In this document: positions 3,247-20,052 of the stretch, in pieces
Position numbering within the stretch: position 1 is the stretch's first letter
Layout of the letters: every line of letters begins with the position of its first letter
Source of the DNA: a virus
Length of the DNA: 20,052 nucleotides
Reading direction: 5' to 3' (one strand)
Virus record (IMG/VR): IMGVR_UViG_3300009705_000176
Coordinates: 1-20,052 of that record
Position numbers and translations under genes: made by a program
Notes under the pieces: model-generated
Databases searched by the model: none
The model's input: the letters and a program-made list of their open reading frames with translations, nothing else
What the model was told of the DNA's origin: nothing

Positions 3247-3357
3247 ATGACACGATTACTTAAAATTATATACCATTATTCAACTTACTTAACCAGTTGG
3301 TCATGGCAAAAACTATATGGCAACAGAAAAACTGGAAAAGGATATAAAAACAAATGA
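3247..3357 (+). CDS. Small basic aromatic-rich protein of unknown function
   Basis: This short frame encodes 36 residues beginning MTRLLKIIYHY and ending GKGYKNK. It starts two bases after the nrdA stop, and its TGA (3355-3357) overlaps the ATG of the next gene in an ATGA arrangement, which is the main reason to regard it as real. The peptide has eight lysines/arginines, no acidic residue and many aromatics (five tyrosines, two tryptophans), so it might bind nucleic acid or a membrane surface. It has no transmembrane segment long enough to call with confidence. I do not recognise a family. There is no clear ribosome binding site, so translation may depend on coupling with nrdA. Confidence 0.5.
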   Translation: MTRLLKIIYHYSTYLTSWSWQKLYGNRKTGKGYKNK

Positions 3358-3584
3358 CACCCACACAATTTATAATTTTAATGTTATCTTTCGGTGTTGT
3401 TTCATTAATAATAATGTTTTTTAAAAGCACATCAGCTAAACAAAAAGTATTAGATTGGATAGAAACAATATTTGTAACATTTTTATGGTTAATGATATTA
3501 CCTATGGCTTTAATTTTTAAGCTATTTGTAAAAGATATAAGAAAAGACAGAAGGAAAAGAAATGACACACCCAGACGATTTTAA
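3354..3584 (+). CDS. Small membrane protein, two predicted TM helices
   Basis: This 76-aa protein has two strongly hydrophobic stretches, about residues 6-23 (FIILMLSFGVVSLIIMFF) and about 39-60 (around IFVTFLWLMILPMALIFKLF), joined by a short polar loop. It ends in a very basic tail (KDIRKDRRKRNDTPRRF). The shape of two helices and a charged C-terminus resembles small phage holins and also many unrelated phage membrane proteins; position inside the nrd cassette gives no support for lysis. The start overlaps the 36-aa gene's stop (ATGA), and the 3' end overlaps the next small gene by 23 bases. An antisense frame covers the same bases but has no support. No family recognised; coding status is likely because of the hydropathy pattern and chained overlaps. 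Confidence 0.7.
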   Translation: MTPTQFIILMLSFGVVSLIIMFFKSTSAKQKVLDWIETIFVTFLWLMILPMALIFKLFVKDIRKDRRKRNDTPRRF

Positions 3585-3726
3585 ATATATACACAAAACA
3601 ATAAAAAAGAATAAAAAGAAACCAGTAAAACAAACAGTTCTTTGGACAATTTATCATAGCATTCTAGCAATAGAATTAGGAATGATTGTTGTAATAGAAT
3701 TTATAGAATTGATGATGACACTATGA
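3562..3726 (+). CDS. Small protein with one hydrophobic segment, unknown function
   Basis: This 54-aa frame starts at ATG 3562, inside the end of the preceding membrane protein gene. It ends with TGA at 3724-3726, overlapping the nrdB ATG (3723) as ATGA. A strong AAGGAAAAG ribosome binding site lies just upstream (about 3551-3559). The first half is lysine-rich (HKTIKKNKKKPVK); the second half, from about residue 28, is hydrophobic with interspersed glutamates (LWTIYHSILAIELGMIVVIE), consistent with a single membrane-associated helix. It fills the whole gap between the 76-aa gene and nrdB, so the region is a continuous translational chain. No family is recognised and no function can be given. 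Confidence 0.6.
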   Translation: MTHPDDFKYIHKTIKKNKKKPVKQTVLWTIYHSILAIELGMIVVIEFIELMMTL

Positions 3727-4687: not shown

Positions 4688-4873
4688 ATGAATAAATTAG
4701 ACGAAGATTTAACATTGCCTACAAAGGTAGACGATTTAGTAACACTGCTAAATAAAGTTTACCCAGAAAAGTCTGCTTCACTTAAAGATGATACTAAAAC
4801 TATCTACTTTAAGTCAGGTCAGCGAGACGTAGTAAATTTCATTAATACTTTAAAAGAGAGGTCAGAACAATAA
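4688..4873 (+). CDS. Small protein of unknown function upstream of virion genes
   Basis: This 61-aa soluble protein begins MNKLDEDLTLPTKVDDL. It contains two probable helices separated by a short strand region (TIYFKSG), with no transmembrane segment, signal peptide or cysteine. It is the first gene after the putative terminator behind nrdB. It overlaps the next gene by one base (TAATG), so it is probably translated together with the gp7.3-like protein and portal. T7 places small host-range or virion genes (6.5 to 7.7) in this same interval, but I see no sequence match to any of them. No clear ribosome binding site precedes the ATG. Real by length, composition and tight fit; function unknown. 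Confidence 0.7.
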   Translation: MNKLDEDLTLPTKVDDLVTLLNKVYPEKSASLKDDTKTIYFKSGQRDVVNFINTLKERSEQ

Positions 4874-5082
4874 TGTGTATGTCACCCAAAATACCTGCCG
4901 CACCAATACAACCTGTTGCACCCACACCAGTTAGAGCAGACCAAGCACAGGATTTATCTCCTGAATTGGTGAAAGCTAACGAGCAGGATTTAAACATCAA
5001 GAAGAAAAAAATCAAGAAGTCTGGTACTTCTTCTTTAAATACTTCTTCTGGTTTGAACATAGCTACTAACACAACTCCTTAA
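4873..5082 (+). CDS. T7 gp7.3-like small virion/tail assembly protein
   Basis: This 69-aa protein begins MCMSPKIPAAP, is proline- and alanine-rich in its first third, then has a lysine block (IKKKKIKKSG) and a serine/threonine/glycine-rich end (GTSSLNTSSGLNIATN). T7 gp7.3, a minor virion protein needed for tail assembly and adsorption, has the same architecture: low-complexity N-part, basic segment GKKSL, and a glycine-rich tail ending GGGINI. Many marine podoviruses carry a similar short protein with a GxxSLxIxxxxxGLNI ending immediately before the portal gene, which is where this one is. It likely joins the portal/tail vertex. The identification depends on architecture and position, not on strong sequence identity. 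Confidence 0.6.
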   Translation: MCMSPKIPAAPIQPVAPTPVRADQAQDLSPELVKANEQDLNIKKKKIKKSGTSSLNTSSGLNIATNTTP

Positions 5083-7410: not shown

Positions 7411-7641
7411 ATGATGTTATTCGCATTAAAGAAAAGTTATGAAGCTGATGAAGCTGAACACACTGCTGTCATTGATACATTTTTACTAAAATCTATTGGT
7501 GTGGCAGACCACGACAATTTCATTGATACTTTAAAAGATAGGTTTGATGCTTTAACGCATACTAAATGTTGTCTTAAAAATATTAAAGACATTGAAGAAA
7601 AGGCTGTTACATCAGCGAAGAAAGACAAAGAGAAGAAGTAG
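7411..7641 (+). CDS. Small unknown protein between scaffold and capsid genes
   Basis: This 76-aa charged, helical protein begins MMLFALKKSYEADEAEHTAV and ends in a lysine/glutamate tail (KKDKEKK). It has a CC pair near the middle (TKCCLKNI) and no membrane segment. The scaffold stop lies one base upstream, and GGAG at about 7399-7402 may serve as ribosome binding site. Two adjacent ATG codons (7411 and 7414) could both be used. T7 has no gene between 9 and 10, so this is an insertion relative to T7, placed where a head-assembly or capsid-decoration accessory would be convenient. No family recognised. Confidence 0.72.
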   Translation: MMLFALKKSYEADEAEHTAVIDTFLLKSIGVADHDNFIDTLKDRFDALTHTKCCLKNIKDIEEKAVTSAKKDKEKK

Positions 7642-7642
7642 T

Positions 7643-7864
7643 ATGATAGAAGCGTTATTGCTTCTATTTGTAAACCCCACAACAACCCCTAGAACCGAAG
7701 AAATGGTTTTTAAATATCTCGTTAAAGAGAGGTTTAAAACTTATCAAGAATGTCAAAAGCATTTGGATAAAGTTCAATATTATAAAGAGGGTGAAACTGG
7801 AGTTTACATAGAAGTTGAAGGAAAAGAAAGACAAGTAGCGGCAACTGCTTGTGACGAAAAATAG
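7643..7864 (+). CDS. Small unknown protein, possible N-terminal membrane or signal segment
   Basis: This 73-aa protein starts at ATG 7643. The frame is open to an ATG at 7592, but that lies inside the preceding gene and would add a lysine/arginine-rich leader. Starting at 7643 places AGAGAAGAAG at about 7629-7638 as a ribosome binding site and leaves a single base after the previous stop. The protein begins MIEALLLLFVNP, a short hydrophobic stretch, followed by a helical region with a cysteine (YQECQKHLDKV), and a strand-like GVYIEVEGKERQVAATAC with a second cysteine near the end. The two cysteines and hydrophobic start might indicate an exported, disulphide-bonded small protein, but the hydrophobic stretch is short for a signal peptide. 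Function unknown. Confidence 0.68.
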   Translation: MIEALLLLFVNPTTTPRTEEMVFKYLVKERFKTYQECQKHLDKVQYYKEGETGVYIEVEGKERQVAATACDEK

Positions 7865-18933: not shown

Positions 18934-20052
18934 ATGGCAAATAGTTTTGTACGTTACACAGGTAACGCTAGTACAACAGCTTTTGCTATTCCATTCAGTT
19001 ATAGGGCTTCAACAGATTTAACAGTAACGATTGCAGGGGTAGCTTCAACTGCATATACATTAAATGCGGCAGGAACTACTTTAACATTTACTTCTGCACC
19101 TGCTGATACCTTAGCTATTGAAATTAGAAGAACAACATCACAGACTGCAAGATTAACAGACTATGCTGATGGTTCAGTTCTTACTGAAAATGATTTAGAT
19201 ACAGATAGTGAACAAGCATTCTTTATGTCACAAGAAGCTATTGATGATGCAAAAGATGTAATCTCATTAGACAATGCAGATTTTCAATATGATGTAGGAA
19301 GTAAAAGATTAAAAAATGTGACTGACCCTACAGCCGCACAAGACGCTGTAACAAAGAATTATTTAGAAAGCACTTGGTTATCAGCTTCAGATAAAACAAA
19401 TTTAACTGCGGTGGCAGGTGTATCAACACAAATGGGATTACTAGGTACTTCAGATGCAATATCTGATATGAACACTTTAGCTACAGCAGATATTATTTCT
19501 GACATGAACACATTAGCTACCAGTGATATTGTTGCTGACCTAAATACTTTAGCGGCTTCAGATATTGTAACTGATATGAATACGTTAGCAACTTCTGCTA
19601 ATGTTACTGCTATGGGATTACTAGGTAATTCTACAACTGTAACAAATATGGGATTACTTGGAACTTCAGCAGTCGTTACTGATTTAGGATTATTAGGAAC
19701 TTCGGCAGTTGTTACTGATTTAGATTTATTAGCTACTTCAGCTAATGTTACTGCTATGGGATTACTAGGTAATTCTACAACTGTAACAAATCTAGGTTTA
19801 TTAGGAACTTCAACAGTAGTTTCAAACATAGCAACAGTAGCAGGTAAAAATACTGAAATTGGTTTATTAGGAACTTCAGCTAATGCAACAGCTATAGGTT
19901 TACTAGGAACGTCAGCAGTAATAGCTGATATGAATACTCTTGCTACTTCAGATATTGTTTCAGACTTAAATACTTTAGCTTCATCAGGAATTGTTGAAGA
20001 CTTAAATATTTTAGCAACTTCAGCAAATGTTACTGCTATGGGATTATTAGGA
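18934..20052 (+). CDS. Tail fibre protein, T7 gp17-type N-terminal domain (3' end outside the window)
   Basis: The first 373 codons are present; the gene continues past the right edge. The N-terminal approximately 105 residues (MANSFVRYTGNASTTAFAIP, then DLTVTIAG, LTFTSAPA, IEIRRTTSQTARLTDYADGS and LTENDLDTDSEQAFF) are the T7 tail fibre N-terminal domain that anchors the fibre to the tail adaptor/nozzle. Next is a linker with the common fibre motif RLKNVTDPTAAQDAVTKNYL (about 125-144). From residue 167 onward the protein is an array of 12-residue repeats rich in leucine, threonine, serine and alanine, probably forming a trimeric shaft. The receptor-binding tip is not in the window. AAGGAA at 18919-18924 is the ribosome binding site. 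An antisense frame within the repeat array is a by-product of the repetition. Confidence 0.93.
   Translation, partial: MANSFVRYTGNASTTAFAIPFSYRASTDLTVTIAGVASTAYTLNAAGTTLTFTSAPADTLAIEIRRTTSQTARLTDYADGSVLTENDLDTDSEQAFFMSQEAIDDAKDVISLDNADFQYDVGSKRLKNVTDPTAAQDAVTKNYLESTWLSASDKTNLTAVAGVSTQMGLLGTSDAISDMNTLATADIISDMNTLATSDIVADLNTLAASDIVTDMNTLATSANVTAMGLLGNSTTVTNMGLLGTSAVVTDLGLLGTSAVVTDLDLLATSANVTAMGLLGNSTTVTNLGLLGTSTVVSNIATVAGKNTEIGLLGTSANATAIGLLGTSAVIADMNTLATSDIVSDLNTLASSGIVEDLNILATSANVTAMGLLG
19597..19647 (+). repeat. 51-bp exact direct repeat, copy 1
   Basis: Starting GCTAATGTTACTGC and ending CTGTAACAAAT, this segment is identical base for base to 19741-19791. The copies are offset by 144 bp, exactly four 36-bp units, and so stay in frame and in register. 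Identity extending through third codon positions indicates recent duplication or gene conversion, not selection on protein alone. Confidence 0.92.
19741..19791 (+). repeat. 51-bp exact direct repeat, copy 2
   Basis: Identical to 19597-19647 over 51 bases, beginning at codons ANVTAMGLL of the fibre shaft. A shorter, diverged third version (GCAAATGTTACTGCTATGGG onward) starts at about 20022 and is cut by the window edge. Confidence 0.92.

Follow-up and report, generated by a model that had tools for sequence, protein, structure and literature searches.

We consider it likely that a T7-type tail fibre of the HTVC019P phage group has a helical shaft, presumably a trimer, whose evolution proceeds by gain and loss of short repeat units and by exchange of tracts. 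The fibre is encoded at the end of a 20,052-base virus record, hereafter the window, whose last base falls inside the tail fibre gene. SAR11 bacteria are the ocean hosts of pelagiphages, which are among the most abundant marine viruses, and pelagiphage fibres are expected to determine the SAR11 cells that get infected. If true, a shaft with units that are gained, lost and exchanged in register would account for the re-pairing of anchors and tips between phages, and it gives a testable prediction on the location of recombination breakpoints.

The window is a fragment of a T7-like pelagiphage of the HTVC019P group, Autographiviridae. Among the 30 phage records that Megablast matched to it, 26 are of Pelagibacter phages, and HTVC201P, HTVC304P, Jormungand and Ran show about 80% identity across about 90% of its length. 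Its genes run in the order ribonucleotide reductase, portal, scaffold, capsid, tail tubes, internal virion proteins and fibre, the same order as in HTVC019P-type pelagiphages, and it contains no tRNA and no Rfam match. Short plus-strand open reading frames of 36-90 residues lie between the large structural genes at 3247-3726, 4688-5082 and 7411-7864.

The fibre gene and the parts of it described first are the following:

18934..20052, continuing past the window end, plus strand: tail fibre gene, 5' 373 codons (open reading frame list; tblastn to annotated Pelagibacter phage tail fibres; PHROG tail fiber families)
18940..19374, plus strand: N-terminal virion-attachment domain of the T7 gp17 type, residues 3-147 (PF03906, Phage_T7_tail, E 4.7e-30)
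19423..20052, plus strand: shaft array of 16 complete 12-residue units, one 10-residue unit and one cut unit (repeat finding, unit profile, lag identity)
19828..19857, plus strand: unit of 10 residues, IATVAGKNTE, which is a decad of the type that builds related shafts (same context in Bylgja, locus L082)

The reading frame that starts at 18934 stays open to the final base of the window. Its PF03906 score of 104.8 bits lies well above the gathering cut-off of 25.2, and the gene comes directly after those of the internal virion proteins, both in the window and in the isolates, which is the position of a T7-type fibre gene. The N-terminal PF03906 domain is thus common to T7 gp17 and the window fibre, whereas past about query residue 197 tblastn gave no T7 match. 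Since the window stops in the shaft, the fibre tip and the total number of units lie beyond it, which excludes a comparison with the T7 tip. The fibre of phage Bylgja aligns with all 373 residues, at 51% identity.

The initial annotation had described 17 or more units of 36 bp, in two alternating flavours, within a fibre shaft. The array is real: the base identity found at lag 36 over 19432-20052, 0.63, is higher than in any shuffle (maxima of 0.33 for 500 base shuffles and 0.41 for 500 codon shuffles), and Tandem Repeats Finder returned 36-bp periods in four rows, from 19462 to 20031. Its assignment to a fibre shaft is likewise supported. The count of 17, however, is reached only by including the 30-bp (10-residue) unit or the partial unit, as there are 16 complete 12-residue units; and the two flavours, both of which are present, do not strictly alternate but occur in blocks, NTLAT-type units near the start, GLLG-type units in the middle and NTLA-type units near the end.

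To place these units among relatives, we used loci from the best 80 of 573 N-domain matches and the best 80 of 304 array matches in IMG/VR, plus five isolate regions; the loci were picked by similarity to the window, and the sample therefore lies near the query. An iterated profile of both unit types was applied to 166 reading frames of fibres, among them the one in the window, which gave the consensus V-T-D-M-G/N-L/T-L-G/A-T-S-A/D-V for the 12-residue unit, or dodecad, and V/I-N/T-T-V-A-G-N/I-x-S-N for the decad. Dodecads and decads are in register, many dodecad runs being flanked by 7 residues before and 3 after that together make up one decad. On this basis, the 10-residue unit of the window reads as one decad within a dodecad run. 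It had been annotated as a possible kink, but an accident of this kind does not agree with a flavour that recurs throughout the relatives and has an identical context in Bylgja.

Both unit types, in identical register, form the shafts of many marine phage fibres, and dodecad shafts are found with T7-type N-domains as well as with others that match different PHROG fibre families. The fibres of HTVC019P-type pelagiphages and related marine phages (Bylgja, HTVC105P and HTVC019P) resemble that of the window in having a T7-type N-domain followed by a shaft of 10- or 12-residue repeats, but differ from it in the number and order of units; most of its close relatives by N-domain have decads only. The Pfam LED repeat (PF20854) is matched by 25 of 26 dodecad arrays at E <= 0.01, with a best value of 6.1e-20. 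Its cut-off of 59 bits is above the scores of the window (25 bits for the whole fibre, 27.8 for the shaft), and was exceeded by none of six related records.

The shaft is likely a helical trimer. In the AlphaFold2 model of the 210-residue window shaft (single chain, 26 sequences), helices of about 10 residues are separated by short breaks, mostly every 12 residues, with a single helix of 20 residues around the decad; mean pLDDT was 80.6 (65.9-80.6 in the five models) and pTM 0.29. A decad shaft modelled with a mean pLDDT of 58 and with confident helix for only the first 90 residues or so. A fold search of the PDB with the dodecad model gave a single, chance-level match (4jrb, E 9.3, Z 2.1), and a PDB sequence search with the window array reached a best E of 0.77. 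In BFVD, the fold search returned four nameless matches at E <= 0.001 and a cyanophage protein at E 0.02, and these are probably driven by sequence, given their low TM-scores and 36-49% sequence identity.

Two structural likenesses deserve mention. First, the regular 12-residue spacing of helix breaks in the monomer model would work like the alpha/beta coiled coils as defined in the available part of Hartmann et al. (2016; PMC4786415), where short helices alternate with a regularly spaced break at small residues; by eye, LAT and LGT of the window recall MAT in the MATKDDIAN nonad of that source. Alpha/beta coiled coils, however, have three chains with beta-layers in nonads or hexads (9 or 6 residues), whereas the window has spacings of 12 and 10 in a single-chain model, and a helical shaft with such 12/10 spacing is not described for them in the same part of PMC4786415. 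Second, the '60 kDa protein' of phage N4 (PDB 9lc0, 9yf4 and 9yf5) is matched by the decad shaft of Jormungand (L084) at E 6.8e-6, but not by the dodecads of the window. We infer that this protein is the gp66 appendage, since the N4 preprint, in its available part, names gp66 among the modelled proteins of 9YF4/9YF5; there, gp66 is modelled for about residues 1-80 only. The Jormungand decads link the shafts of marine T7-like fibres with an N4 appendage-type protein.

At the DNA level, the array contains an exact internal repeat:

19597..19647, plus strand: copy 1 of the exact 51-bp repeat, ANVTAMGLLGNSTTVTN (direct comparison, synonymous permutations)
19741..19791, plus strand: copy 2, at an offset of 144 (different unit at the corresponding place in L099)

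Both copies are identical, as had been noted before. In 300 rounds each, the longest exact repeat was 36 bp under array codon usage, 35 under phage codon usage and 41 in synonymous permutations; with 51 bp reached in 0 of 300 permutations, protein identity and codon bias are insufficient to account for the repeat, and the claim of a recent copying event in the DNA is upheld. At lag 144, identity is limited to the first 51 of 144 bp and codon identity elsewhere is near the level of codon usage, which points to a patch rather than to a recent tandem duplication of 144 bp. Across the array, synonymous identity is likewise close to expectation (0.57 from codon usage; 0.45-0.67 at most lags), and most units have synonymous sites close to saturation. 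Taken with the single identical patch, this indicates that most units are old and that one patch is young. Locus L099 has a single counterpart of the block, identical at 48 of 51 positions, and another unit where the window has copy 2; hence the patch probably arose by copying in the lineage of the window, or disappeared from L099, once the two shafts had separated. Internal exact repeats are uncommon, the window ranking fourth among 129 distinct arrays, 11 of which exceed all 60 of their own permutations. An exact search of viral contigs with a 42-base piece of the duplicated block gave no matches.

Exchange of segments between fibres is a stronger signal than difference in unit number, and three stretches of the window bear on it:

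19438..19824, plus strand: shaft segment (387 bp) 89.4% DNA-identical to L099, the nearest shaft relative
19660..19751, plus strand: 92-bp tract identical in L099 (exact match)
19958..20028, plus strand: 71-bp tract identical in L013 and L026 (exact match)

The N-domain of the window is nearest to that of L002 and L003 (90.4% of DNA, and 87.2% over the upstream 1.5 kb), the shaft of which consists of decads only, and the N-domain of its nearest shaft relative, L099, is 40-41% identical to it in protein. A run as long as the 92 bp shared with L099 was reached in 3 of 5000 mismatch shuffles, and the longest runs shared with L003 in 5.1% (N-domain) and 31% (upstream stretch). Among the distinct arrays, 127 have complete 5' ends, and between these 5331 non-independent pairs have N-domains less than 50% identical; exact shaft tracts of at least 50 bp occur in 5 of these pairs and of at least 40 bp in 8, against none and 0-3, respectively, in six rounds of synonymous permutation. 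No N-domain tract of at least 40 bp was found among the same pairs, though the permutations serve better as a control, conservation being lower in N-domains than in shafts. Two loci, L097 and L129, share no N-domain match, maybe because their N-domains are cut, and the count was limited to complete 5' ends.

The reading we favour, of a shaft evolving by unit gain and loss and by tract exchange, would work as follows. Three chains would pack as a long, mostly helical shaft of which each unit is one step, such that gain or loss of a unit in frame would be tolerated. Because the units resemble one another, patches could be copied by recombination or by template switching, both inside the gene and from one co-infecting phage to another, which would alter shaft length and pair anchors with other shafts, and so probably with other receptor-binding tips. 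In a further-reaching version, the array itself would be more than a spacer and serve as a platform for exchange at the DNA level, in which repeat homology lets marine phages with distant anchors copy tracts of about 50-200 bp into each other's fibres and re-pair their anchors with foreign shafts and tips, the in-register 12/10 design keeping nearly every in-frame product foldable. We regard this version as possible, but rather doubtful.

Pelagiphage fibre-shaft repeats have been described before (Mizuno et al., 2014; PMC3909814), where, in the available part of the text, the repeat patterns are said to share no similarity with each other, and unit gain or loss and exchange at the DNA level are not described. 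Our search of the open-access literature found no paper on unit gain, loss or exchange in such shafts. The informative part of the present results is the in-register design with two units, together with the DNA tracts shared across anchors; overall, this is a variation on known fibre biology.

That the array might act as a mechanism for changing fibre length had been suggested in the initial annotation, and simple replication slippage could provide a quick switch of this sort, much as in a contingency locus. The 36-bp periodicity and the exact 51-bp repeat are what slippage would leave behind, and unit number does change between relatives. Among 41 close pairs (at least 95% upstream DNA identity over 480 bp or more; complete, non-identical arrays, identical ones having been omitted beforehand), array length is the same in 26 and different in 15, the pairs being related and non-independent and some counted more than once (by contig name, L013 = L142, L026 = L148 and L076 = L091). 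One further pair, L131 and L135 (95.3% upstream), lies outside this count as L131 ends soon after the array; it shows one clean 36-bp and one clean 72-bp step between arrays that are otherwise nearly identical. The two 72-bp copies at that step are nevertheless visibly diverged in the alignment, and L117/L124 and L072/L086, more than 98% identical upstream, differ by replaced segments. The near-saturated synonymous sites and the limited identity at lag 144 described above also speak against slippage, as does the uniform length of the Skadi fibres: 2403 bp in eight of eight isolates, with 0-4 differences from Skadi-1 (eight of nine matched records compared; the upstream comparison of Skadi-7, with 573 differences and a shifted start, was dropped). 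Himinglaeva and Unn equal Bylgja across the 1484 bp compared. Thus, the suggested change holds between relatives but not as a fast, strain-level process, and slippage as a length switch is unlikely; array length shifts on a time scale of percent divergence, with no change seen within near-identical isolates. The Skadi paper (PMC10504331), in its available part, reports a hypervariable region, with a structural lectin-domain protein among its contents.

The lengths of the main decad runs in related fibres (L028, L045, L033, L047, L037, L072 and others) cluster at 4-5, 9, 13 and 17 units, that is, in steps of 40 residues or 120 bp, and net array differences of 120 bp are recurrent between close pairs. 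A preferred size of block, or a small set of shared alleles, may lie behind this; we do not claim decad runs quantised in steps of four (5, 9, 13, 17), as the loci are related and may have a few alleles in common.

Assembly artefacts at repeats could also account for the exact tracts that are shared, and perhaps for the 51-bp repeat. Both cross-anchor pairs with tracts of at least 60 bp involve contigs cut in the array, and the window itself ends there. We find this decidedly improbable, as the exact tracts common to the window and L099 are separate, and stretches between them have diverged, unlike the product of one chimeric join, and tracts of 59 and 51 bp occur in pairs not cut in the array (L105/L165 and L092/L127). 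Besides the window, contigs L096, L099, L103, L126 and L161 end within the repeat shaft; assemblers seem to break inside it, and variation in unit number may be hidden for this reason. Hence a warning that marine phage assemblies can end, or may mis-join, within fibre shafts.

Finally, that the repeats bind receptors or glycans, with unit flavours encoding specificity, would fit, indirectly, with the variation of pelagiphage fibre genes in metaviromes (PMC3909814, available part), but is very improbable given that identical units occur on different N-domains and C-terminal parts, and that the strongest under-recruitment reported in the same part of that source is in C-terminal regions and C1q-type proteins. 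In the reading that we favour, the shaft would be a spacer, with receptor binding most likely in the C-terminal tip. A conserved segment, VNSFA(D/E)RYRVAS...LDEGDLYYN...LKYYNGSxW, follows many shafts whatever their N-domain (L087, L090, L076, L095, L107 and others), and the window fibre probably continues into a segment of this type past the window end. One dodecad fibre (L120) has in its N-domain, at residues about 99-130 on the anchor side of the shaft, a carbohydrate-binding module, CBM_5_12, that scores above its cut-off.
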